From contig CANQCS010000010.1 in assembly GCA_947589745.1 (NCBI GenBank), positions 1 through 62,736 on the forward strand: a stretch of 62,736 nt of DNA, in the 5' to 3' direction. Position 1 is the first letter of the stretch. The number at the start of each line of letters is the position of its first letter. Positions 3,492-53,730 of this stretch are shown here, in pieces. This DNA comes from an uncultured Oscillospiraceae bacterium (lineage in GTDB: Bacteria; Bacillota; Clostridia; Oscillospirales; Oscillospiraceae). A program made the translations under genes and the position numbers. The notes under the pieces were generated by a model. It saw only the letters and a list, made by a program, of their open reading frames with translations, did not search any database and was not told the DNA's origin.

Positions 3492-3531
3492 GGCCGTTCC
3501 GGGCTCCTACCCCCGGAGCGGCCCTTTTTTT
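3492..3531 (+). terminator. Strong rho-independent terminator between integrase and repressor
   Basis: A 12-bp stem (3492-3503 with 3512-3523, one G-T pair), an 8-base loop and seven Ts (3525-3531) on the plus strand. No plus-strand protein gene lies upstream of it inside the prophage, so its substrate is either a short RNA or readthrough from the host side. Confidence 0.8.
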
Positions 3532-3886
3532 GTTCGCTTTACTTCTACCATAGATTTACAATAGACGTATCTCCTTACTAAGATTATTTATAATAATATA
3601 TATATTATATATTACTATACAGATAAAAGAGAGTGCATAGATAGACTATAGATTAGATACAGACTACAGGTATAGATCAGACTCAGTAACAGTAACAGCG
3701 CGTCGCGCGCGCGCACGCGCGCGTGACACCCTATCGGTGAGTTAGTTAGGGTTTGGCGCTTGTACATCATATCGCGTGTCGAAGTCTGTCAAAAGAGATT
3801 TTATTTCTTTTCTTCCACATCTATACCAGCTCATGGTATATTGTCATTGCGCAAATACATAGCCCTGGCGCCGGGGCGGGAAGGAT
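3532..3886. other. Non-coding stretch with AT-rich block and alternating CG tract
   Basis: After the terminator comes about 150 bases of AT-rich sequence with TATATATTATATATT-type runs. Then follows a run of alternating pyrimidine-purine bases (mostly CG) at about 3704-3725, inside a wider GCGCGT...GCGTG block that starts at 3698. No gene is supported: an open plus-strand frame from 3760 lacks a good start and lies opposite the repressor. The composition is unlike the surrounding genes. Confidence 0.5.
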
Positions 3887-4528
3887 TTACTTTGGAGAAC
3901 CTTGACGCTCAATTTTTGAAACTGCTTCGGAAGCTGACGCCTGATCAGCGCCAGGCTTTCGTTGACTTTCTGCGGCTATTGTCTGTAGGATTGAAAGAGC
4001 GAGAGCCTTCTGGGGAAGTTCAAGCGACCTCACAAGACGAATAGCCTCTTGCTCAATCTCGTCCCTCGGTTCGGATTCGTCCGGGCCGGGGGATTTTTTT
4101 GTGCTTTCAGAAGGAACATCCGGCCCATCGTCACCAAGCAAATGGCTTACCGAGCATCCAACTATTTCTGCCGCTCTGCATGCATTGGCCAGCGTCAATG
4201 CCCTCTGGTCCGCCATAATCTTCTCAAGTTCATAATATCCGGCTAAAGCAAGCTCTTCCTCAGAGAGCGAATTTCTGGCCAGCTCCATCTCGACAGACAG
4301 GTGCTCTTTGAACTTTTCGGAACAACCATCTTGTTTGTCATTGCCAATTAGATAGTCGGTCGATACTCCAAAATAGTTGGCAATTCGAAGAATTGTCGTC
4401 ATATCCGGTTCCCGCTTCTCGGTCTCCCACATGGCAACAGTTCCGTTTGCAACTGCCAGTGCTTGTGCAAGTTGCACCTGGGTCATATTTGCCTCCTTTC
4501 GAAGAGTTTTCAATCTCGCAGCGAACAA
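3887..4528 (-). CDS. Phage repressor, XRE/CI-like
   Basis: Probable lysogeny repressor. The N-terminal helix-turn-helix of the XRE family (about residues 3-58, with the MTQVQLAQAL and GTVAMWE helices) is followed by an acidic, helical C-terminal part with no visible peptidase domain. TTG 4528 is chosen as start because AGGAGGTGAG lies 4 bases upstream of it. A GTG at 4567 has no ribosome site. The gene is transcribed away from the Cro-like gene, and the space between them holds three operator-like sites. The product would be about 213 residues. Confidence 0.8.
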   Translation of the reverse strand: MFAARLKTLRKEANMTQVQLAQALAVANGTVAMWETEKREPDMTTILRIANYFGVSTDYLIGNDKQDGCSEKFKEHLSVEMELARNSLSEEELALAGYYELEKIMADQRALTLANACRAAEIVGCSVSHLLGDDGPDVPSESTKKSPGPDESEPRDEIEQEAIRLVRSLELPQKALALSILQTIAAESQRKPGADQASASEAVSKIERQGSPK

Positions 4529-4602
4529 TGCGCTCACCTCCTGTGATGTTTGGGCACATTCTATCACAATCAGTGAGTGTAAGCAAGAGAAAATAGGCGA
4601 TT

Positions 4603-4668
4603 CTCACGAAATGTTAATTCTCTATTGACAACACTCACAAAATGTTATATTATACTCACGAAGCGTGA
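4603..4668. promoter_or_regulatory. Three operator-like sites between repressor and Cro-like gene
   Basis: Site 3 (4654-4668) is a 15-bp palindrome with CTCAC and GTGAG arms around GAAGC. Site 1 (4603-4616) and site 2 (4633-4646) share CTCACnAAATGTTA, the left arm plus a degenerate right arm. Spacings are 30 and 21 bases. Sites 2 and 3 overlap the promoter at 4624-4652, the arrangement of a lambda-type operator. Confidence 0.7.
4624..4652 (+). promoter_or_regulatory. Early rightward promoter
   Basis: TTGACA (4624-4629), a 17-base spacer and TATTAT (4647-4652), directly upstream of the Cro-like gene. Operator-like sites cover the spacer and the start region, so it should be shut off by the repressor. 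Confidence 0.75.
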
Positions 4669-4685
4669 GAAACGGAGGTGATAAT

Positions 4686-4895
4686 GTGAAATCTCGCTTT
4701 AGGATTGAGGAGTTGAGAAAAAAAGCCGGACTTACACAGCGGGAGTTGGCGGAGAAACTTGGTTTTCAGTCTACCTCAATTGTGACAATGTGGGAAACCG
4801 GAAGTAGGAGCCCCCGAAGTGAAGTGTTGCCTTTGCTTGCAACTGTGTTGCAGTGCAATATTGGCGATCTGTTTCAGTCGGACGCTGCTGAGTGA
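4686..4895 (+). CDS. Cro-like XRE repressor
   Basis: A 69-residue protein that is almost entirely one helix-turn-helix domain (GLTQRELAEKLGFQSTSIVTMWE). It starts at GTG 4686, 5 bases after GGAGGTGA. It is the first gene of the rightward early operon and sits opposite the larger repressor. By position and size it is the Cro counterpart that would switch the phage toward lytic growth. Confidence 0.8.
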   Translation: MKSRFRIEELRKKAGLTQRELAEKLGFQSTSIVTMWETGSRSPRSEVLPLLATVLQCNIGDLFQSDAAE

Positions 4896-4923
4896 AGCAC
4901 CTTAGAAAACAGGGAGGTGAGCG

Positions 4924-5805
4924 ATGCCAATGAACTTGAAGCAGAAGCGGCTGGAGCTCGGACTGACCCAGCAACAGATTGCTGACGCCATGGGGACGGG
5001 CCGAACGACGGTAGCGATGTGGGAAGCCGGTGCGTCTATGCCGCCAGTTCCAAAACTACAGAAACTGGCAAAAGTCTTGGGCTGTTCTATGGATGACCTG
5101 CTTGATGAAAAGAGCTCCCAAGAAGCGCATGAAAACATCGGCATGCAAGAAGGTAAGGACATGAGAACTTGGCTCGTTGAAATCAGAAAGGCAGCAAGAA
5201 AAAGTCAGCAGGCAGTGGCAGATGCAGCAGGAATCAGCCAGACCTATTACGCAGGAATTGAAACCGGCACCAGAGGTAAGCCTCTCGGCGTTCCGGTGGC
5301 GAAAGCAATCGCCGGTGCTCTCGGGTTCGACTGGAAAAAATTCTACGACGAAGACGAGAACGCCCGCACAGTTGACGACCTATATCAGAAAGAAAATGGC
5401 ACTAGAGGCAAGGCTGTCCATGCACCCTATCCAGCCGAAAGCGGCGTTCAAAAGGAACCCGCAAGAAAACGCTCCGAACTGTCCCTAGAGGAACTTGAAG
5501 CCATCTATAAGCGCATACAACCCCGCGCCTTCGAGGAGCACCTGATCCGGTGCGTTGAAAGTGAGGGCCAGCAATGGATGGTTTTCGCGGATGTGTGCCG
5601 CGTCCTGGGGTACAAAAACCCGCAGCACCAGGCAAAGTACCTCAGAGAAGAAGAAAAGTGCAAGTTAGACATCGCCCTCAAAAACACCTTGGTCAACTGC
5701 GTAAACAGGAGCGGCTTGCGCAGGGTATGCCTATTGTCGGCCAAGGATGTCGGGCAAAGGCTGTCCGACTGGGCAGACAGAGAAGTCTTCGTGGAGAGGA
5801 GGTGA
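4924..5805 (+). CDS. Composite regulator: HTH + HTH-like + Bro-N antirepressor domain
   Basis: The 293-residue product combines three parts. Residues 1-58 form a typical XRE domain (GLTQQQIADAMGTGRTTVAMWE). Residues about 80-140 form a second XRE-like domain (KSQQAVADAAGISQTYYAGIE). After a linker, about 195-293 resembles the N-terminal Bro/KilA-N-associated domain of phage antirepressors (WMVFADVCRVLGYKN, then a short ARSK-like end). Such antirepressors usually oppose the lysogeny repressor. The unusual part is the addition of two DNA-binding domains. ATG 4924 follows GGAGGTGAG closely. Confidence 0.65.
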   Translation: MPMNLKQKRLELGLTQQQIADAMGTGRTTVAMWEAGASMPPVPKLQKLAKVLGCSMDDLLDEKSSQEAHENIGMQEGKDMRTWLVEIRKAARKSQQAVADAAGISQTYYAGIETGTRGKPLGVPVAKAIAGALGFDWKKFYDEDENARTVDDLYQKENGTRGKAVHAPYPAESGVQKEPARKRSELSLEELEAIYKRIQPRAFEEHLIRCVESEGQQWMVFADVCRVLGYKNPQHQAKYLREEEKCKLDIALKNTLVNCVNRSGLRRVCLLSAKDVGQRLSDWADREVFVERR

Positions 5806-5810
5806 ACAGA

Positions 5811-6005
5811 ATGGCGGAAGAAAAAACCAGAAATCCGATGGACAGGAATCTGGTGGATGAATACAACCGGAATTTCAAGACGGCAAAAGAAGTAGCCTCC
5901 GTTTTGGCGAAAAATGGAGCCACAGTCGGGGACTTGAATGAAATTTTCAGGCTCGCTGGGCGCTGCTTGGCTGTTGTCCCTGTTCATTCCGGTGACGCGC
6001 AATGA
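5811..6005 (+). CDS. Small helical phage protein, first of a tandem pair
   Basis: 64 residues, with AGGAGGTGAACAGA directly before ATG 5811. Function unknown. The central part (AKEVASVLAKNGATVGDLNEIFR) aligns with the next gene's AKKVASLLAENKVTLAEMEGIIK, so the two are diverged duplicates. No membrane segment or metal motif is visible. Confidence 0.65.
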   Translation: MAEEKTRNPMDRNLVDEYNRNFKTAKEVASVLAKNGATVGDLNEIFRLAGRCLAVVPVHSGDAQ

Positions 6006-6041
6006 CCGCAAAGGAAGATTTCATAGAGAGGAGGCAAAACC

Positions 6042-6239
6042 ATGAGTGAAGAATTAAGCGTTGTAGAAAGACGCCGAATGGAAGCGGAGCTTTATGACGC
6101 TGAACGCAAGCGCCAAAGAGACATCGCAAAAAAAGTGGCCTCGCTCTTGGCAGAGAACAAGGTCACTTTGGCGGAGATGGAAGGTATCATCAAGCGCCTT
6201 CGGTATCTGCTGGAAGTCTCTTTTCCACAATCTCCATGA
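6042..6239 (+). CDS. Small helical phage protein, second of a tandem pair
   Basis: 65 residues, charged N-terminal half and the same A-K-x-V-A-S-x-L-A-x-N core as the preceding gene. It starts after a GAGGAGGC ribosome site. Function unknown; the size and early position suggest a regulatory or host-takeover role. Confidence 0.65.
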   Translation: MSEELSVVERRRMEAELYDAERKRQRDIAKKVASLLAENKVTLAEMEGIIKRLRYLLEVSFPQSP

Positions 6240-6292
6240 TAGCCAGATTACGGAGAACGAAAACCACTGAAAATTTTGTGGAGGTGAACACA

Positions 6293-6520
6293 ATGCGCGC
6301 ACTGTTATCCCGGAAAGAAGCGGCTGCCCGGCTCCAAATATCTGTTGATACCTTGGACGTTGAGCGGGCCAGCGGCCATCTGGCCTATATCCAGCGCAAG
6401 CCCGGCGGCAAGGTCTGGATCACCGAGGACGCTATCGCGGAGTACCTGGAGCGGGCCACCCACCCGGCACGGCCGAAGCTGCGGACGGGCACCGACACCA
6501 TCCGCCGGCGGAGGGTGTAA
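6293..6520 (+). CDS. Excisionase-like DNA-binding protein
   Basis: 75 residues with a winged-helix of the HTH_17 (excisionase/MerR-like) family: LLSRKEAAARLQISVDTLD, a basic wing (YIQRKPGGKVWI) and a final helix, then a basic tail. ATG 6293 follows GGAGGTGAACACA. It could be the directionality factor for the integrase, although it lies 2.9 kb away, or a general transcription factor. Confidence 0.65.
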   Translation: MRALLSRKEAAARLQISVDTLDVERASGHLAYIQRKPGGKVWITEDAIAEYLERATHPARPKLRTGTDTIRRRRV

Positions 6521-6595
6521 GAGACGGTCGAGCCGGAATACATCAAAAGCCGCCCGGAGGCGGCCAACAAATCACAGACAGAAGGAGATACGAAC

Positions 6596-7189
6596 ATGAA
6601 AGAGATCAAAGTGAGACTGACCTTCACGGAGGGCCTGCTGGGCACCAGCCCAGCCAATGAGGACGTTTACCGTGACTTTATCGGCTCGAAGGCCCCGGAT
6701 GCCGCCACGGTGGAGGATGAGGTCGCCGCCCTGGGCACCGATGCCGTGGTCGAGAAGGGTATGACCGTGTTCCCCCGCATGGCGGACGGCACCCCCATGC
6801 TGTATGACTACCAGATCAAGGGCTTTTTTAAGGACACCTGCGGGGGCCTCCGCAGAGTCAAGGGCACAAAGTCCGAGAAGCTCAAAGCCTATAAGAAGGA
6901 GATCGACCGCCTGATCTTCCCGGAGCCCCGCCATATCCCCATTCTCTTTACCGGGGAAATGACCGAGTGCCAGCGGCCCCTCCGGGCCCAGACGCCCCAG
7001 GGTGAGCGGGTGAGCCTCGCCATCAGTGAGCAGATCCCCGCCGGGGCGACGGTCGAGTTCACCATCGTGTGCCTCTGTGATGACCATGAGGACCTGGTCC
7101 GCGAGTGGCTGAACTACGGCAAGTATTCCGGCATCGGTCAGTGGCGGAACAGCGGCAAGGGCCGCTTCACCTGGGAGGAGCTCCAGTGA
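6596..7189 (+). CDS. Conserved-looking phage protein with a RAMP-like glycine-rich end
   Basis: 197 residues; function not known to me. A predicted beta-rich N-terminus (EIKVRLTFTEGLLG) is followed by a central part with many Lys/Arg. The C-terminal segment from IPAGATVEFTIVCL to SGIGQWRNSGKGRF resembles the last strand, helix and glycine-rich loop (GxGxxxxxGxGRF) of Cas5/Cas6/Cas7 RAMP-fold proteins. That resemblance is by eye only, and the protein is short for a Cas7. The start is well supported (AGAAGGAG before the ATG). The phased-pentamer array begins directly after its stop codon, which suggests a functional link. Confidence 0.6.
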   Translation: MKEIKVRLTFTEGLLGTSPANEDVYRDFIGSKAPDAATVEDEVAALGTDAVVEKGMTVFPRMADGTPMLYDYQIKGFFKDTCGGLRRVKGTKSEKLKAYKKEIDRLIFPEPRHIPILFTGEMTECQRPLRAQTPQGERVSLAISEQIPAGATVEFTIVCLCDDHEDLVREWLNYGKYSGIGQWRNSGKGRFTWEELQ

Positions 7190-7203
7190 CCGACCGCGAC
7201 GGC

Positions 7204-7944
7204 GCTGTGCTGTGGAACAGTTGAGCGCAGATTAGTTGGGCGGTGGCATCGTAGGGAAACAGTATCGATAGCCTGGTGATTGCAAAGGAAGCGCTTCGTA
7301 GCGCCCTGCAACGCCACTCAACGACGCGCAGAGGCATGGAATCGAGACGAATAGCACGGGCGGGCCTTGCCGCGAGTAGCGACGGCAAAGCAGGGCGAGG
7401 CAAGGCCGCGTATGGGCGAGGTGTAGCCGGCGCAGCTGTGAGCATCAACGGCAGAGCATCGTGAAGTGAAGAAACGCGAGGGCTTCGCGAGGTACGGAAT
7501 GGCTGTGTATCGGCAGGGCAGGGCTGCGCGGTGAATATCTGCGCAATGGTGAGGCGAAGCGTAGTCAAGAACGGCAAGGGGAAAGCCCGGAGAATCGTGG
7601 ACTGGCAAAGGTTACGCGCTGAGTACCGGAGCCTCGCAATGGAAGTGCTGCGTAAGGCCAAGTACGGCAGGGACATTGCGTTGCGCCGCCCGGCAGAGCT
7701 CCGCAGCGGCTCAGATAGGATACGCAGCGAAAGGCAAAGGAATCGAATGGCAGAGTTTCGTGGTGAACCGTTAGCAAAGGAACAGCTGCGTATTGAACAG
7801 CGACGGTTTGCAAGGGAAACGCGTGGAAAAGCCGGGATTGGCAAAGGAAAAGCCCAGCAGAGAGATGCGGAGCTAAGGAATTGCACAGCCAAGTCCAGCA
7901 TTGCGACGGAAAGGAAATGCCAAGCACTGAGAAGCAGTACATTG
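7204..7944. repeat. Non-coding array with G at every fifth base and a 31-bp superperiod
   Basis: The plus strand can be cut almost without gaps into pentamers of the form NNNNG, with an extra base about every 31 bp. In 7688-7944, 48 of 51 phased positions are G. Eight clean 31-bp blocks consist of one hexamer ending in GG (CAATGG, CAGCGG, CAAAGG, CTAAGG, CGACGG or GCAGGG) plus five pentamers. They lie at 7513-7543, 7544-7574, 7637-7667, 7704-7734, 7735-7765, 7842-7872, 7873-7903 and 7904-7934. The pentamers are not copies of each other; only the phase is kept. Open frames crossing it on both strands are by-products of this composition. The array fills the whole space between the RAMP-like gene and the HNH gene. 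Confidence 0.85.
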
Positions 7945-7990
7945 CCGAACATTTGACCATCAAAAATACAGAAAGGAGGTCACGGCCTTT

Positions 7991-8500
7991 ATGGCCACAA
8001 GAGTCTTTAAGTACGATCTTACAGGGGAACGGTTCGGGAAACTTGTGGCGATTGAAGCAACAGAACAGAGGAAACATGGAAAAGTTGTGTGGCTTTGCCG
8101 GTGCGACTGCGGAAACACTTGCATGGTCATGTCAACACGATTGGTCAGTGGGCATACAAAATCCTGCGGATGCTATAGCAGTGAGCGCACAATCGAGATG
8201 AACACAACGCACGGCGGAACAAGATCGCGTTTGTTTTCAATTTGGGGTTCCATGAAAACTCGTTGTTTCAATCCACGGTCAAAATCTTTTGGTTACTATG
8301 GCGGGCGTGGAATAACGGTTTGCCCAGAATGGGAACACGACTTCTCAGCTTTTCAAAAATGGGCAATGGCGAACGGCTACAGAGACGATCTGACGCTTGA
8401 CCGTATTGACGCAAACGGGAACTACTCTCCAGAAAATTGCCGATGGGCCACATGGCACGAGCAACGTCTCAATAGGAGGGGGGCGGCAAATGCGGTATAA
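7991..8500 (+). CDS. HNH endonuclease-like protein with N-terminal zinc ribbon
   Basis: 169 residues. The N-terminal half has [10 protein letters not shown], found in AP2/HNH phage proteins, and a CRCDCGN...CGC set of cysteines that may bind zinc. The C-terminal half contains [15 protein letters not shown] and [21 protein letters not shown], the core of the HNH nuclease fold. Such genes are usually free-standing homing endonucleases. It starts 46 bases after the pentamer array with AGAAAGGAGGT upstream, and has lower GC than its neighbours, which fits separate acquisition. Confidence 0.8.
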
Positions 8501-8675
8501 AGTTTGCCAGAATTGTGGTGCACACTTGGATTTCGGGGAACGCTGCGATTGCAGGGACAAAAAGGAGGCCGCCCCGCTGGCACGGGAACGGCCCCAGGCA
8601 AAAATACCCGATTCCAGTGTAGCAGTCAGCGCGGCGGATGTCAAGGCCGGGAGGTCCGCAAATGACGAAAGCTGA
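8490..8675 (+). CDS. Small zinc-ribbon protein
   Basis: 61 residues starting at ATG 8490 after AGGAGGGG, overlapping the end of the HNH gene. [16 protein letters not shown] at the N-terminus is a compact four-cysteine metal-binding knuckle; the rest is polar. Function unknown. Confidence 0.65.
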
Positions 8676-9027
8676 GGAGCTGCGGCGGCTGCGTGTCAGC
8701 CGCCAGATACCGGCCAAGGATATGGTCGCCGTGGTCCAGGAGCTCTACCCGCGCTTCGACAAGCCGACGCTGAGCAGGTGTGAGCACGGCGGCGAGTGCG
8801 GCGTATCCATCCCGGACGATGCCCTGGAGCTGCTCTATGACCGGTTTGCCCCGGACCTCAAACAGCACATCCAGGACCGCAGGAAGGACCGGCACCGACT
8901 GACGTGTAAAGTATCGGCCCGGCTGGACGCGACGGTTTTCGAGGCGTTGCAACGGCGCATAGAGGCCGATGGATACGCCACCGTCCAGAGCTGGCTCACC
9001 GATATGGTGATGGCATACATCGAGTAA
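8662..9027 (+). CDS. Phage protein with basic C-terminal domain, possibly DNA-binding
   Basis: 121 residues from ATG 8662 (GGAGGT upstream), overlapping the preceding gene. The N-terminal part ([19 protein letters not shown]...LSRCEHGG) reads like a XRE-type helix-turn-helix. The C-terminal part (ARLDATVFEALQRRIEADGYATVQSWLTDMV) resembles a ribbon-helix-helix. It lies just before the recombination genes and may regulate them. Confidence 0.6.
   Translation: MTKAEELRRLRVSRQIPAKDMVAVVQELYPRFDKPTLSRCEHGGECGVSIPDDALELLYDRFAPDLKQHIQDRRKDRHRLTCKVSARLDATVFEALQRRIEADGYATVQSWLTDMVMAYIE
8945..8954. repeat. Dispersed palindrome CGTTGCAACG, copy 1
   Basis: Perfect 10-bp palindrome that occurs six times in the prophage (8945, 18161, 19989, 28528, 36649, 57171) and not in the flanks. 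See the finding. Confidence 0.6.
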
Positions 9028-9070
9028 TCAGCGGCACAACGCCGCCACCAATAGAAAGGAGATTTTTACC

Positions 9071-10036
9071 ATGATTCGCAACCCCAACGACATCCGAGAG
9101 GGCGAGAAGAAGATCCGCATGCTGATCGCCGGTTATCCCGGCATCGGCAAGTCCACCCTGGCCCTCTCCGCGCCCAACCCCCTGCATATCGACGTGGACT
9201 TCGGCATCGACCGCATCGAGCCCCGCTACCGCAAGCCCTACATCCAGCCCAGCAGCTATGAGGAGATCCTGGGGGACCTGGTGCCTATGAACCTGACCGA
9301 CTTTGACACGCTGGTCTTTGACACCGGCGGCAAGCTGATCTCCCTGATGTCCCTCTGGGCCATCAAGAAAGATCCCAAGTACGGCCAGCGCGACGGCTCC
9401 CTCTCCCTCAAGGGATACGGCTTCGTCGGCAAGGAGTTTGTCCGGCTGATGGACTACTGCTTCTATGAGCTCCAAAAAAACATCGTCATCGTGTTCCACG
9501 CCACGGAGGAAAAGGACGGCGATAACACCCGGCTCCGCATCAAGGTCGAGGGCCAGACCAAGAACAACGTCTGGGAGCCCATGGACCTGGGCGGCTTCGT
9601 GGAGATTTACGGCAATGACCGCACCATCGGCTTCTCCAACTGCGAGCGGTACTTTGCCAAGGGGACCCGCGGCATCAGCGGCGTTCGGAAGATCCCCGCT
9701 CTGACGCCCACCAGCCCCAATGACTTCCTGACCAGACTGTTCGCCGAGTACAACGCCAGGGCCACTGCCGAGGTAGAGCAGGCCGCGGCCGCCAAGGCCG
9801 CCTATGACGCCGCCATGGAGCAGGGCCGCGCCCTGGTGGAGACTATCGTGGATGCTGACAGCGCCAACGCCGCCAAGGCTCAGTACGCCAACATTCAGCA
9901 TGCGCTCACCTCCAACAAGGAGATCGGCGTCCTCTGGAATGCCAAGATCAAGGCCTGCGGCCTGATGTACGACCGAGTGCTCCAGAAGTATACCGTGGCG
10001 CCGCAGGCCGATGGAGGCACAAAGGGGGCGGAGTAA
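9071..10036 (+). CDS. Sak4-like AAA ATPase, recombination mediator
   Basis: 321-residue phage nucleotide-binding protein of the RecA-like AAA_24 group. The Walker A is GYPGIGKST (21-29), and the Walker B is in TLVFDT (about 80-85). A long alanine-rich helical tail lies at about 220-285. Proteins of this type (Sak4) act as single-strand annealing or recombinase-like factors and are usually coupled to an exonuclease and an SSB. Both occur here (10037 and 12347). A ribosome site (AAAGGAGATTTTT) precedes the ATG. Confidence 0.8.
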   Translation: MIRNPNDIREGEKKIRMLIAGYPGIGKSTLALSAPNPLHIDVDFGIDRIEPRYRKPYIQPSSYEEILGDLVPMNLTDFDTLVFDTGGKLISLMSLWAIKKDPKYGQRDGSLSLKGYGFVGKEFVRLMDYCFYELQKNIVIVFHATEEKDGDNTRLRIKVEGQTKNNVWEPMDLGGFVEIYGNDRTIGFSNCERYFAKGTRGISGVRKIPALTPTSPNDFLTRLFAEYNARATAEVEQAAAAKAAYDAAMEQGRALVETIVDADSANAAKAQYANIQHALTSNKEIGVLWNAKIKACGLMYDRVLQKYTVAPQADGGTKGAE

Positions 10037-10648
10037 TTGGACCGCTATCTGATGACCCACTCGCTGCTGTCCTCCTGGCTGTACGCCATCAAGGAGAATC
10101 CTTATGAGGACATGACCACCGAGCGTGACCCCATGGATGAATTTATGACGGTGCTGCGCCGGGAGCCGACGCCGACCACGGAGGCGATGCAGAAGGGCAT
10201 CGACTTTGAAAATCTCGTGACCGCCATCCTCGGCGGCCAGGGGGACCCCAAAAACAAATGGTATGACGCCGCCGTGAAGGTGGCGGGCATCATCCGTGGC
10301 GGCGTTCTCCAGGTGCGGGTGCGCAAGGAGATTCAGGTGGGCGACCTGACCCTTGTCCTCTACGGACGACTGGATGCGCTCAAGGCCGGCGGCGTCTATG
10401 ACATCAAATTCTCCGGCAGCTATGACCGGGGCAAGTATTTCACCAGCACTCAGCACCCCGTGTACCTGGAGATCGTCCCGGAGGCGGAGCACTTCACCTA
10501 CCTTGTGAGCAACGGGTCCGAGGTCTGGACGGAGCAATACCGGCGGGAGGATACGCCCAGCATCTTCCCTATCATATCTGACTTCCTGGACTGGCTGACC
10601 GTTCACGGCCTGCTGGAGCTATACAAGGAGAAGTGGTTGGCCAAATGA
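10037..10648 (+). CDS. PD-(D/E)XK nuclease, Cas4/RecB-like exonuclease
   Basis: 203 residues; TTG start directly after the stop of the ATPase gene. The nuclease signature is readable: Glu in GIDFENLV (about 58), Asp in GRLDAL (113), D-I-K at 122-124 and Gln-His at about 139-140 before a Tyr. This is the RecB/Cas4 order. It should resect DNA ends for the Sak4-like protein next to it. Confidence 0.75.
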   Translation: MDRYLMTHSLLSSWLYAIKENPYEDMTTERDPMDEFMTVLRREPTPTTEAMQKGIDFENLVTAILGGQGDPKNKWYDAAVKVAGIIRGGVLQVRVRKEIQVGDLTLVLYGRLDALKAGGVYDIKFSGSYDRGKYFTSTQHPVYLEIVPEAEHFTYLVSNGSEVWTEQYRREDTPSIFPIISDFLDWLTVHGLLELYKEKWLAK

Positions 10649-14449: not shown

Positions 14450-14958
14450 TGGTGAAGCGGAAGGACCCGGAGCGTCAGCGGATCGGCGCCGTCAACAGGG
14501 CGCTGGGCAAGCGGTTTGAGGCCCGCCTGGACGCGACCTTTGAATACTACCGCGCCAGAGGATTCGCTTTCGTGGAGAAGACCCCGGAGCCGATGAAGGT
14601 GATCGGCCGGCTGGAGCAGGGCAGGTTCGTTGCCTGCTATGAGAAAAAGGCCCAGCCTGACTACAAGGGCATCATCAAAGGCGGGCGGACGGTTCTGTTC
14701 GAGGCGAAATTTACCACCGATGGCCGCATCGAGCAGAGCCGGGTCCTCCCCAGCCAGGCCGACTACATGACCCAGCATGAGCAATTGGGGGCCCGCTGCT
14801 ATGTCCTGGTGGGGTTTGGGTCCGGTGCAGTCTATCGTGTCCCATGGTCCGTGTGGGCGGACATGAAGACCCACTTCGGTCACAAATACGCCACCGAGGC
14901 TGAGCTTGCCGGGTATCGCGTATCCACCGCGTGGAATGACACGCTGCTGATTTTTTGA
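14449..14958 (+). CDS. Holliday junction resolvase, RecU-like
   Basis: 169 residues from ATG 14449. Nuclease core residues of the RecU/VRR-NUC type: Glu in GKRFEARL (24), Asp in AQPDYKG (71) and E-A-K in LFEAKF (85-87), followed by YVLVGF. It would resolve branched DNA before packaging. It lies at the end of the replication block. Confidence 0.75.
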   Translation: MVKRKDPERQRIGAVNRALGKRFEARLDATFEYYRARGFAFVEKTPEPMKVIGRLEQGRFVACYEKKAQPDYKGIIKGGRTVLFEAKFTTDGRIEQSRVLPSQADYMTQHEQLGARCYVLVGFGSGAVYRVPWSVWADMKTHFGHKYATEAELAGYRVSTAWNDTLLIF

Positions 14959-14976
14959 TTTGAAAGGAGCTATCCA

Positions 14977-15726
14977 ATGAGTGAGATTTCCAAGTATGAG
15001 GCCCAAAAGAAGAAGATGCAGGGCCTCTGCGACGAGCATGAGCTGGTGTATCGGTTCTTGAAGGACCAGTACCCCATCGTGTTCACCATCAGCCCGGCCA
15101 AGGGCATGGACGCCCAGCTCTCCATGCTGGAGAACGTAGAGGAAAAGGGCTACCGCAGCCCCGATTCCCACATGGACTGGATCTTTGAGGACGGCGTTCT
15201 GACCACCAAGGTCACCGGCGGCACGTTCACGATCTCCAAGGTCCTCCGCACGAAGATCGAGAACAGCCTGGCCAAGATGATCTCCTACTGGCAGCAGTAT
15301 TTCTTCCGGGACATCCTGGAGAAGAATGTGCTGCGCGCCAGTCAGATGCCGGTCATCGACGAGGACGAGGCGGAGGACCCGCCCGACGGAGCGGAGCCCA
15401 TCGAGGAATTTGACGGCAAGGATATGCAGCCTGACGACGATGACGGCGCCCAGGACGATGATGACACGGATGACGGCGCCTCCTTGCCGTCCGTCCTCGA
15501 TACGGACGATCCCGACGTCAACCGGGCTATCGCTGTGGTCCGGTCCGAGAACAAGGCTACCACCGCCCTGCTCCAGCGCAGGCTGAACATCGGCTACTCC
15601 AAGGCGTCGCGCATCATGGATACCCTGGAAAACATGGGCGTGGTCAGCGTCTACAAGGGCGGTATGCCGCGGGATGTTCTGCCCTACGACCTGCCCGACG
15701 AGGAACAGGAGGGCGACGATGAGTAA
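14977..15726 (+). CDS. Phage protein with C-terminal FtsK-gamma-like winged helix
   Basis: 249 residues. The first 120 residues are helical (a possible SMC-hinge-like or Gam-like coil, unassigned). Then follows an extremely acidic linker (about 125-170, many Asp). The C-terminal part (VNRAIAVVRSENKATTALLQ, RRLNIGYSKASRIMDTLE) matches the FtsK gamma domain, which in host FtsK reads polar sequence motifs. The translocase motor is absent here, so the domain is used for DNA recognition in another context. Confidence 0.65.
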   Translation: MSEISKYEAQKKKMQGLCDEHELVYRFLKDQYPIVFTISPAKGMDAQLSMLENVEEKGYRSPDSHMDWIFEDGVLTTKVTGGTFTISKVLRTKIENSLAKMISYWQQYFFRDILEKNVLRASQMPVIDEDEAEDPPDGAEPIEEFDGKDMQPDDDDGAQDDDDTDDGASLPSVLDTDDPDVNRAIAVVRSENKATTALLQRRLNIGYSKASRIMDTLENMGVVSVYKGGMPRDVLPYDLPDEEQEGDDE

Positions 15727-15940: not shown

Positions 15941-17778
15941 ACGCACTGGAGCTGATTTCCACCGGCGAGGCGCGGGAGGGGTTTTTCCCCACTCCGCCCC
16001 AGGTGGCGGATAAGCTGTTGGAGGGCATCGACTGGGACATGGCGGAGAACATTCTGGAGCCGTCCGCCGGGAAAGGTGACCTTGTGAAAGCAGCTGTCAA
16101 AAAGTACGTCCTTAACTCACGATACAGTTATCACGACAGGCAGGTCCATGTCGATGCCGTGGAGATCGACCCTTATCTGCGGTCCATCCTCAATTATGAG
16201 TTCTGCGGCCAGCGGATAAATGAGCTTTACGACCTGAAAAAGCAGCTTGACGATTCCAAGACATACGACTGCGACCGGCACGAATATGTGTGGCCCTCCG
16301 AGGATATTTCCATGAAGCTCCGAGAAACGGAACTGGAGATCAAGCACCTGGAGCGGCTGTGGTTCACGGTCGTGCATGATGATTTCCTCACTTTCCAGAG
16401 CCGTAAGCACTACGACCTTATCATTATGAATCCGCCCTTCGCGGACGGGGACGCCCACCTACTGAAAGCTCTGGAGCTGCAGCGGTCCAACGGCGGCCTG
16501 ATCCGGTGCGTCTTGAATGCGGAGACCATCCGCAACCCGTACACCAACCGCCGGAAAGTGCTGCAAAGGCTGCTGACAGAGTACGGGGCGGAAATCTCTT
16601 TCCTGGAGGGCGCGTTCCTGGATAGTGAGAGGAGGACAGACGTCGCCGTCGCCATCGTCAAAGTGGCCATTCCGCAGCCGAAGCGCACCAGCGCCATCTT
16701 TGAGCGGCTGCAAAAGGCAGCCAAGGTGGACGAGGCGGCCCAGCCCGACGTGACGGAGATGACGGTGGCCGATTTTATGTCGCAGATCGTCACCCGGTTC
16801 AATGTGGAGGTAGACGCCGGGATAGAGCTGATTCGGGAGTATGAGGCCATGAAACCATACATCCTGGAGCACTTCAATGACAGCTCCTACAACTACCCGG
16901 CATTGACACTTTCCACCGGTGAGCCGAGCAGCATGGACCGGGGCCGCACCCCATCCATCAATAAGTACATCCGCATCGTGCGAGGGAAATACTGGAGCGC
17001 CCTGTTCTCCAACAAGGAGTTTGTCGGAAAGCTGACCACCAATCTGCGGGAAAAGTACCGAGAGATGGTCGATAGGCTGAAAGACTACGACTTTACCCTG
17101 TACAACATCCAGCAGATCGCCGACCAGATGAACGCCGAAATGAACCAGGGCATCCAGGATACCATCGTGGCTCTGTTCGATAAGCTGACCGAGGAGCATT
17201 CCTGGTATCCGGAAATGCAGAAGAACATCCACTACTACAACGGCTGGAAGACCAACAAGGTCCACAAGATCAACAGCAAGGTCATCATTCCCATCAGCGG
17301 CGTGTTTTCCAGCTATTCATGGTCAAAAGAGACGTTCAACGTCTATGAAGCGGAAAGCAGGATCTCCGACATTGAGAAGGTCTTTGACTTCCTGGACGGC
17401 AACGCCACGTCGGCAGTGGACCTTCACGGAGTGCTGCTGCGGGCGTGTCAGGAGGGGCAGACCAGGAATATCCCCTGCAAATACTTCGATGTTACCCTAT
17501 ACAAGAAGGGGACCATGCACATCAAGTTCCGCAACCTGGAGCTGCTCGACCGATTCAACATCTACTGCGGCCGCAAGAAGAACTGGCTGCCGCCTAACTA
17601 CGGCAGGACCTCCTACGCCAACATGACCGCAGAGGAACGGGCCGTGGTGGACGGGTTCCACGGTGACGGGAGCGAGGGCGCTGGTGAGTCCGCCTATCAG
17701 GCGGTCGTCGCCAAGGCTGCTTATTTCCTCGCGGAGCCCACAAAGAAGCTGCCGGCGCTGATGGCCCCGGCGATCTGA
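15937..17778 (+). CDS. DNA adenine N6-methyltransferase with DUF4942-like C-terminus
   Basis: 613 residues. The SAM-binding motif I is ILEPSAGKGD (39-48) and the catalytic motif IV is NPPF (165-168), the signature of N6-adenine methyltransferases. The C-terminal half (from about 270, VADFMSQIVTRFN onward) resembles DUF4942, probably the target-recognition part. No restriction enzyme is next to it, so it most likely protects phage DNA or controls expression rather than forming a restriction system. Confidence 0.85.
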   Translation: MNALELISTGEAREGFFPTPPQVADKLLEGIDWDMAENILEPSAGKGDLVKAAVKKYVLNSRYSYHDRQVHVDAVEIDPYLRSILNYEFCGQRINELYDLKKQLDDSKTYDCDRHEYVWPSEDISMKLRETELEIKHLERLWFTVVHDDFLTFQSRKHYDLIIMNPPFADGDAHLLKALELQRSNGGLIRCVLNAETIRNPYTNRRKVLQRLLTEYGAEISFLEGAFLDSERRTDVAVAIVKVAIPQPKRTSAIFERLQKAAKVDEAAQPDVTEMTVADFMSQIVTRFNVEVDAGIELIREYEAMKPYILEHFNDSSYNYPALTLSTGEPSSMDRGRTPSINKYIRIVRGKYWSALFSNKEFVGKLTTNLREKYREMVDRLKDYDFTLYNIQQIADQMNAEMNQGIQDTIVALFDKLTEEHSWYPEMQKNIHYYNGWKTNKVHKINSKVIIPISGVFSSYSWSKETFNVYEAESRISDIEKVFDFLDGNATSAVDLHGVLLRACQEGQTRNIPCKYFDVTLYKKGTMHIKFRNLELLDRFNIYCGRKKNWLPPNYGRTSYANMTAEERAVVDGFHGDGSEGAGESAYQAVVAKAAYFLAEPTKKLPALMAPAI

Positions 17779-38945: not shown

Positions 38946-40802
38946 ATGGCAACTCTCGGTGTAAGAGTCAATGAAGTGGCCACGTCCATCAGCACTCCCA
39001 ACGTGGCCAAGGTGGGGCTGCCCTACTTCGTGGGGGCCGCCCCCGTGCACATGGTGGAAAAGCCCGCCAAAGTCAACACTCCTGTTCTGGCTACCAGCTG
39101 GGACGAGGTCGTGGAGAAGCTGGGCTTCTCCTACGACTGGAAGAAGTACCCGCTGTGCGAGGCTATGTACAGCCACTTCCAGCTGTTCGGCTGCCAGCCC
39201 GCTATCTTCTGCAACGTTCTGGACCAGACGAAGATGAAGGCGACCGTAGAGGCGAAGGACTACGATGTGACCGAGTACAAAGCCGCGCTGCCCTTCGATA
39301 CCATCGAAAGCTCCATCAAGATCGAGCGCGGCCCGAACAACTACCCCAGCCTGGGCCTGACCGTCTCCAAGGAGATGGGCAATGCCGTCCTGTCCCGTGT
39401 GGGTGACAGCGTTTCCGACGCTGCCGCTTACACCTTCTACAAGATCTTCGACGCCAAGCAGAACGGAACCAAGGGCTACCTGTTTGAAATCGAGGCAGGC
39501 GGCAAGCGGTACGGCTGCGCCCACAAGAAGATGGAGCACCGCAAGCTCTATCTCACCCTGGACCCCAGCACCGGTGTCAAGCACATCAATTTTGTGGACG
39601 GCGAGAAGGCGGATCAGTCGCAGGGCATTGACCTCTCCAACTACACCGGCGATGTGACCGTGAAGCTGTTCAGCTTTGCCGCAGTCGATATTGACCCGGA
39701 GACCTACCCCGACGATATGGAGCTGGTGGAGGAGTACACCTGCCATCTGGAGAAAGGCCACGGCCCCGAGTATTTCTATCCGGACGAGGACTACATCGTT
39801 CTCTATGACGAAGATGAGGACGCCTGTGTTATCGAGCTGCTGGAAGACGGCGACGCTTATGAGGAGGCCAAGCTCCGTATCAGCTGTGATGCCGTCACCC
39901 CGGAAAAGGTGGAGGTGGCCGACATCGTGGAGGGCGTGGGCCAGGTGGACGCGGCCATGACCGCGGTGGGCCAGGTCCCCGACCTGATCTGCGCCCCCGG
40001 CTGGTCCAGCAACACCGTGGTCGCGGCGGTGATGGCCACCAAGGCCTCCGCCATCAGCGGGCTCTTCAAGGGCAAGGCCGTCATCGACATCGACAGCAGC
40101 GAGGAGGGCGTCACGGAGTATTCCCAGCTCTCCGGCTACAAGAACCAGAACAACTTCGTGGACGTGGACCAGATCGTCTGCTGGCCCATGGTGAAGCTGG
40201 GCGACTACCAGTTCCACCTGTCCACCCAGCTATGCGGGCTCATGGCCAAGGTGGACACGGACAACCGGGGCATCCCTTACGAGAGCCCCTCCAACAAGAA
40301 CCTCAAGATGGACACCTGCTGCCTGGCGGACGGCACGGAGGTCAACCTGACCTGGCCCCAGGTGGAGATGGTGTCCGGCGACTGGGGCATCGTCACCGCT
40401 GTCAACTTCATGGATTCCGGCTGGGTGGCCAAGGGCAACTACACCGCCTGCTTCCCCGCCAATACCGACGTGAAGGACCAGTTCATCCCCGTGAGCCGGA
40501 TGTTCGACTTCATTGGCAATACCCTGATTCGGACGTTCTGGTCCAAGCAGGATAAGCCCCTGACTCCCGCCCTGCGGGACAACATCCTCCAGACCTGCAA
40601 CATCTGGCTGGGCGGCCTGTACGGCAGTGGCTACCTCTACGGCGCGCGGTGCGTGCTGCTGGCGGCGGAGAATCCCTTGACCAATCTCCTGGCTGGCCAC
40701 ATCACCCTGCATGTCTACAACGCCCCGCCTGTGCCCGCGCAGTTTATTGAGTTCCTGCTGGAGTACGACGTCTCCTACATGGAGACGGCCCTGACGATGT
40801 AA
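38946..40802 (+). CDS. Tail sheath protein
   Basis: 618 residues. The N-terminus (VRVNEVATSISTPNVAKVGLP) and the conserved C-terminal half (LICAPGWSSNT, NRGIPYESPSNKNLKMDTCC, DFIGNTLIRTFW, ILQTCNIWLGGLYGSGYLYG) are those of contractile phage sheaths. About 230 residues between them (roughly 100-330) form extra surface domains, which explains the length above the usual 350-500. It identifies the phage as a myovirus. Confidence 0.92.
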   Translation: MATLGVRVNEVATSISTPNVAKVGLPYFVGAAPVHMVEKPAKVNTPVLATSWDEVVEKLGFSYDWKKYPLCEAMYSHFQLFGCQPAIFCNVLDQTKMKATVEAKDYDVTEYKAALPFDTIESSIKIERGPNNYPSLGLTVSKEMGNAVLSRVGDSVSDAAAYTFYKIFDAKQNGTKGYLFEIEAGGKRYGCAHKKMEHRKLYLTLDPSTGVKHINFVDGEKADQSQGIDLSNYTGDVTVKLFSFAAVDIDPETYPDDMELVEEYTCHLEKGHGPEYFYPDEDYIVLYDEDEDACVIELLEDGDAYEEAKLRISCDAVTPEKVEVADIVEGVGQVDAAMTAVGQVPDLICAPGWSSNTVVAAVMATKASAISGLFKGKAVIDIDSSEEGVTEYSQLSGYKNQNNFVDVDQIVCWPMVKLGDYQFHLSTQLCGLMAKVDTDNRGIPYESPSNKNLKMDTCCLADGTEVNLTWPQVEMVSGDWGIVTAVNFMDSGWVAKGNYTACFPANTDVKDQFIPVSRMFDFIGNTLIRTFWSKQDKPLTPALRDNILQTCNIWLGGLYGSGYLYGARCVLLAAENPLTNLLAGHITLHVYNAPPVPAQFIEFLLEYDVSYMETALTM

Positions 40803-53600: not shown

Positions 53601-53730
53601 GTTTGGCTCTCTGTTTTTATCGCGCGGGTATCCCCACACCACTTGGTGAAAATTTTGTCGTCAGGACGGAATCTAGTAGGCCCCAGGGCTCGAATGATGC
53701 CGCAGACAAACAAGGAGGGCTATTCCTGAC

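Follow-up and report, generated by a model that had tools for sequence, protein, structure and literature searches.

A five-base G-phased array beside a predicted Cas7-fold gene in an Oscillospiraceae prophage, very probably an RNA-guide module of the VIPR kind

The closest described systems are the VIPR systems, which consist of phage RAMP proteins (Vipr) and vrRNAs (bioRxiv 2026.04.26.720920, first posted April 2026, version 2 June 2026; PMC13142463). Each vrRNA consists of 9-16 copies of the repeat YNNGG and ends in a 3′ tail, conserved and structured in type II. The NN bases of the RNA pair with DNA, double-stranded DNA is recognised with a 1-nt skip, and the systems are active in competition between phages (PMC13142463). 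In SUSP1, the vrRNAs co-purify with the RAMP, and an accessory gene, vap, is typical of VIPR (PMC13142463). Its seven types use GGY/NN or a consensus related to it, in some arrays, called staggered, the vrRNAs overlap, hammerhead-interspersed arrays are mentioned, and VIPR is proposed to predate CRISPR as a gapped RNA-guide system (PMC13142463). At the SUSP1 model locus, YNNGG repeats flank a gene of 195 aa whose product carries the glycine-loop motif. The VIPR preprint (PMC13142463) is the only description of this kind of system found in a literature search, and it has overtaken the statement, made in a preliminary description of the DNA considered here, that no such element had been described.

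The window, which is the whole stretch of 62,736 nucleotides analysed (contig CANQCS010000010.1, from an uncultured Oscillospiraceae bacterium), encodes at 6596-7189 on the plus strand a 197-aa Vipr-like protein of the RAMP superfamily, a member of what is here called family A. An integrase, regulators and a Sak4-like protein give the gene a prophage context. The structure predicted for the protein, compared by a structure search plus BFVD, points to a Cas7/Csm3 fold. It contains both the RRM core and the glycine-rich loop by which VIPR proteins are defined, the loop GIGQWRNSGKGRF lying at the end. The Cas7 fold is an RNA-binding fold in CRISPR complexes. Pfam, PHROGs and NCBIfam put no name to the window protein; among 60 family A members, ten have weak matches to Cas7 III-D in PADLOC (best E 4e-4) and eight have matches to cas5_csm4 in NCBIfam (best E 0.0067). 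The preliminary description of the array does not mention this adjoining gene.

On the other side of the array, 56 nt past its end, begins an HNH endonuclease gene (7991-8500, plus strand; phrog_374, E 2.5e-69), which is not a conserved partner. In the fetched flanks of family A, no neighbour gene is conserved across the family, and no vap-like partner is found among them. PADLOC finds no cas family among ten neighbouring proteins, with matches only for two HTH-type proteins. Positions 3500-10500 contain no CRISPR-type repeats; the nine direct-repeat families there have 2-3 imperfect copies each. Rfam finds nothing in the window array. Elsewhere in the window, Rfam matches an RT-18 RNA at 53637-53717 (65.6 bits; gathering 41.3), and a coding tandem repeat of 30 bp, which reads DIPDEQPPLT, lies at the contig start (22-159) beside an ORF (482-1339) that we take to be sortase-like.

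The array begins 14 nt past the end of the RAMP gene and extends from 7204 to 7934 on the same, plus strand, where it is proposed to specify a vrRNA-like guide RNA. It was read with a hidden-Markov phase decoder that replaced a permissive earlier version, which had scored up to 139 in shuffled loci. The decoder finds one track with 143 phased positions, 134 of them G, connected by 122 five-base and 20 six-base steps. The region scores 42, as against 0 in 300 mononucleotide shuffles; codon-shuffled controls score 0 in 81 loci, and no G-phased array is decoded in 1.82 Mb of the same genome. The autocorrelation of G over 7204-7944, relative to 300 dinucleotide shuffles, is high at lags 5 (z = 10.3) and 10 (z = 7.1) and again at lags 36 (z = 8.4), 31 (z = 8.0) and 26 (z = 7.3). 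In a scan of the whole window, the top 30 G-scoring 250-bp stretches all start within 7126-7851. The five-base G phase claimed earlier for 7204-7944 is therefore borne out, none of the 300 shuffles giving a track. The near-complete phase in 7688-7944 also stands, although the decoder counts 48 G among 49 phased positions there instead of 48 among 51.

The pentamers vary in sequence, as was seen at the outset, but they are not arbitrary. In the window, the base after the G is C in 50% and A in 28% of pentamers (together 78%), and the second is A in 45%. The third and fourth bases are near uniform, which leads to the consensus G[C/A]A/NN. The combination of biased bases 1-2 and near-uniform bases 3-4 matches the scheme of a conserved triplet followed by NN. 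The unit with an extra base, first characterised as a GG-ending hexamer, does exist and is better described as mostly GCAANG; one of the 20 six-base steps, for example, is the GCAAAG at 7605-7610. Of the 19 distances between neighbouring six-base steps in the window array, 11 measure 31 nt. In the best-preserved part of the array (7445-7934), the 13 distances between hexamers comprise ten of 31 nt, two of 36 nt and one of 76 nt. An irregular block at 7740-7815, which the decoder reads as 14 pentamers plus a hexamer, is better read by eye if a 4-nt unit, GTTA (7770-7773), is allowed immediately before GCAAAG (7774-7779).

The 31-bp superperiod proposed for this array holds for those 11 cases, but it is not universal. 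Across the arrays of loci L002-L080 and the window, with five near-duplicates left out, four pentamers between hexamers are commonest (26 nt; 351 cases), followed by five (31 nt; 277) and six (36 nt; 185). In the same arrays the mean step is 5.155 (sd 0.028), and the hexamers are evenly spaced, the variance of the gaps being 6.2 compared with 30.8 under random placement (n 1228). RNA folding at ten positions in 71 loci is not clearly above that of shuffles (mean z -0.60 to 0.01), and the 60-nt stretches at the 3′ ends of the arrays in these loci reveal no structured tail (mean z 0.01 and -0.26).

Comparison of related phages, proposed in the preliminary description as a check, gives a clear result: in family A arrays the phase is kept, the sequence drifts and no reading frame is kept. 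If the phase is taken from one sequence, phased G is changed in 2.9% of cases (n 2162), as against 15.7% for G outside the phase (n 2272), in agreement with the early view that the phase is selected rather than the sequence. In homologous segments, the columns that differ are 29 of 1025 where the position is phased in both sequences, 685 of 4592 where it is unphased and 34 of 234 where it is phased in one. Change at pentamer offsets 0 to 4 is 3.5, 13.4, 15.1, 18.2 and 15.8% (n 814-827), and the hexamer positions G, C, A, A, N and G change in 0, 8.8, 5.3, 4.4, 17.5 and 0% (n 114 each). In eight close relatives, each array is a mosaic assembled from segments that others share. In all 25 pairs compared, 96-100% of the gene can be aligned and 0-100% of the arrays, a difference to be read with the flanks in mind: these are mosaic too, so that turnover of the array is not distinguishable from that of nearby phage DNA.

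The link between gene and array is general in family A. When loci are found through the gene, 75 of 79 have an array (the misses are L015, L016, L026 and L077), and so do 38 of 45 further non-duplicate loci, on the plus strand; in L161, both the RAMP gene and the array are on the minus strand. Ten misses were inspected. L083, L015 and L077 are interrupted by contig ends or splits, L095, L139 and L142 have array-like sequence below the threshold, L126 and L154 have apparent short array remnants only, and L026 and L016 have no array visible on inspection. A search with a DNA pattern modelled on the array gives 84 loci. An array decodes in 54 of them, and the fetched stretch contains the RAMP gene in 47 of these 54 but not in L166, L168, L187, L200, L222, L223 and L236. 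Whole records of four of these seven (L168 via L273, L200, L223 and L236) all contain a match to the RAMP gene, which in L223 is a 17-residue end only, at the contig edge; L187 carries a gene of a second family, family B.

Pooling of both searches, some of whose genes were found through the array pattern itself, gives 157 distinct RAMP genes, of which 140 have a coding-strand array within 250 bp. Among these 140 genes, the array is downstream in 85, upstream in 45 and on both sides in ten. The rest comprise six genes with coding-strand arrays more than 250 bp away, two with an array on the opposite strand only and nine without an array, three of which are at contig ends. Opposite-strand arrays do not decode at all in 119 of the 140. 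The G track follows the coding strand both in upstream and in downstream arrays, which points to a single strand. Arrays in gene-driven loci have 39-261 phased positions. The family has 62 loci in viral contigs, and a profile scan of viral contigs gives 280 relatives, 80 of these 280 being among the matches listed; in a sample of the order, the gene occurs in four of 394 genomes, the window's own included.

Several individual loci have features of their own. The highest-scoring array of the gene-driven and array-driven searches, with 229 phased positions, is at L200:6355-7531; in the record of that locus, a 73.7-kb contig, the RAMP gene lies apart from it at 39256-39885, and a G-phased track decodes there too. 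L024 has a second G-phased array on the opposite strand (6175-6475), near a RAMP locus with its own coding-strand array. A type II hammerhead ribozyme is found by Rfam upstream of the RAMP gene in L022 (4458-4523). Over 15 loci, Rfam finds tRNAs and one hammerhead, all outside the array.

Family B, which corresponds to phrog_4652, was reached from two array loci without family A and also consists of glycine-loop proteins. It occurs in 32 actinophage records, a number that includes duplicate records of the same phage; examples are QUICO_57, UmaThurman gp39 and ODay gp19. The Vipr of SUSP1 matches Gordonia phage Ecliptus gp19, a family B member (E 2e-3), so family B is related to Vipr by sequence. 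For family A, hhalign against the Vipr profile gives a probability of 15% (E 0.0017) over the glycine loop only, and 4% against family B alone; two of 60 family A members reach phrog_4652 (E 0.012). Family B resembles the window family in having the glycine-loop motif and an adjoining G-phased array, but its arrays have the consensus GGY/NN and 5-nt steps with 4-nt units, mostly GGCA. The spacings between the 4-nt units are 34-54 nt in 26 of 33 cases, and the mean steps are 4.87-4.94. A related second gene is beside the family B gene in five of seven loci by BLAST, the exceptions being Quico and L187. The model of a family B member, made from three sequences, is poor (pLDDT 45.5).

In one record, G394 (L273:1940-4492), RAMPs of both families are in tandem, each with its own type of array. 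The family A gene match (14701-15324) has a 5/6-step array downstream that starts within about 15 nt of it, and the family B gene (16277-16936) is followed by a GGY/NN array with 4-nt units. Arrays are also found beside ORF22 of the Listonella phage phiHSIC, which has 31% identity to the SUSP1 Vipr. Two decoded arrays in this phage (L412:1790-2130) are strictly GCA/NN with steps of exactly 5; the arrays have about ten repeats each with tails between them, and a third is seen by eye. Their consensus resembles that of the window array, and since these arrays flank ORF22, a G-C-A triplet is compatible with a relative of Vipr.

The array is a genuine element under selection, and it belongs to a kind whose first description dates from 2026. 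The window module is very probably a prophage-borne RNA-guide system of the VIPR kind. The periodicity, the link to the gene, the strand rule, the conserved phase and the two near-uniform positions are all direct observations. In the mechanism that we propose, one transcript would cover both the RAMP gene and the array, the latter forming an untranslated part that extends the message. By analogy with Cas7 complexes and in keeping with the conserved G, RAMP subunits may line up on this RNA with a spacing of one pentamer, so that every subunit grips the phased G and the C/A and A after it. The two remaining bases of each pentamer would then be displayed and, as in the published VIPR mechanism, could pair with gaps to a DNA target. 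The same mechanism suggests genes of competing phages or prophages as the likeliest targets, which would be repressed. The hexamer GCAANG might act as punctuation, that is, as a boundary, loading or processing signal between mostly 4-6 pentamers. One of the two ideas put forward at the outset, an RNA copy that presents a regular G to a protein counting in 5-6 nt steps, fits both the adjacent protein of predicted Cas7 type and the published VIPR mechanism.

Several points count against a guide system of the VIPR kind: no target is found in the sets searched, the similarity to Vipr is weak, no vap-like partner appears in the fetched flanks and no structured tail at the array ends, and all four non-G positions of the pentamer vary (13-18%), not two only. 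In a masked comparison of the window array with the phage that carries it, the best site agrees at 19 of 25 informative bases within 31 nt, and 13 foreign control arrays give 18-21. In the genome of origin (1.88 Mb, including the window), the best matches of the window array are 16-18 of 20, depending on the rule, and those of four foreign arrays are also 16-18. Six-unit words from 183 arrays show no clear excess in 2.0 Mb of phage loci under gap rules 0-3; in this search, positions 3-4 with skip 1 give 1099 matches compared with 1017 for shuffled units, which is not decisive. Words that bridge the hexamer, at distances of 2-13 over 2035 junctions, do not exceed swapped controls at any distance. 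An exact scan of viral contigs with the 1-nt-skip pattern of one window junction gives 0 sites. The scan with a second junction gives one site in two low-GC (32%) contigs, where the neighbouring units fail to match (2 of 11 and 5 of 11), and this was put down to chance. These target sets are small compared with the diversity of phages.

The alternative that survives best is an unguided ribonucleoprotein, in which the RAMP would form a filament on the array RNA whose role is that of a decoy, sponge or scaffold, with no target information in the free bases. The lack of a target in the searched sets and the similar rates of drift at the four non-G positions are consistent with it, as is the length of the arrays, whose 39-261 phased positions far exceed the 9-16 repeats of published vrRNAs. 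We nevertheless consider it unlikely. Two near-uniform positions beside a biased triplet are what guide positions would show, the published relatives are guided (PMC13142463), and a coat would not require a conserved, evenly spaced hexamer.

Much less probable is a cis-regulatory leader or trailer, through which the RAMP would bind its own message and control its own expression or stability only. Arrays do adjoin the gene on either side and on its coding strand, but ten of the 157 genes have arrays on both sides, six have them more than 250 bp away, and the mosaic arrays of close relatives would not be needed for pure autoregulation. Still less credible is the other idea of the preliminary description, a phased double-stranded DNA element with G on one face of the B-DNA helix for a DNA-binding protein. 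The mean step of 5.155 is near half a helical turn, but the related arrays have steps of 4.87-4.94 or exactly 5, spacings of 26, 31 and 36 nt in one family and mostly 34-54 nt in the other misfit one helical repeat, the polarity relative to the gene is strict, and the partner protein has a predicted Cas7 fold. A protein-coding repeat or low-complexity artefact is scarcely conceivable: the minus strand carries a 261-aa open frame, but a five-base phase fits codons badly, among the 29 indels that separate homologous arrays 5 nt is the commonest length (ten cases) and only five are multiples of 3, and two array ORFs tested have no PHROG matches. On these grounds, the DNA-face and coding readings were rejected. 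What survives of the preliminary interpretation is the conserved phase, the non-coding nature of the array and the RNA alternative; the helix face and the novelty of the kind do not.

If the RNA-guide reading is accepted, the window family extends VIPR to phages of Clostridia and some others. Its repeat consensus is different, its arrays run on without interruption for far longer, and its punctuation unit recurs at even distances. A bolder proposal, which we regard as possible but doubtful, is that the window belongs to a VIPR lineage not described before, whose guide array is punctuated: blocks of mostly 4-6 pentamers would be set apart by a minimal conserved unit, GCAANG in family A and GGCA in the Vipr-related family B, the punctuation shifting the register by plus or minus one base according to the family. 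Because two array grammars go with two RAMP families, once in the same phage, the reading of guides by the RAMP is directly testable.

The window system resembles VIPR in having a single phage RAMP with a glycine-rich loop, in non-coding arrays that adjoin the gene on one side or the other and whose 5-nt repeats combine a conserved triplet with two free bases, and in the occurrence of family A in phages and prophages. It differs in its consensus, G[C/A]A/NN instead of GGY/NN, in an array whose 143 phased positions form a single unbroken track, where VIPR has 9-16 repeats and a structured tail, in the evenly spaced hexamer GCAANG and in lacking a conserved vap gene in the fetched flanks. Since the seven types of the preprint include a related consensus and staggered arrays, the window system may be one of them; a long, tail-less, punctuated array is not described in its main text (PMC13142463). 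The system is thus VIPR-like and probably a distinct variant. In contrast to the type III Cas7 (Csm3) and type VII Cas7 of CRISPR, its RAMP has no CRISPR-type array at 3500-10500 and no cas match among ten neighbours, and the guide period is 5 in the window family as opposed to 6 in class 1 CRISPR (figure from PMC13142463). A small RAMP with a continuous multi-unit array would bear on the possible origin of repeat-spacer arrays. If the blocks between hexamers are separate guides, this would be a repeat-spacer architecture outside CRISPR, placed between single vrRNAs and CRISPR arrays.
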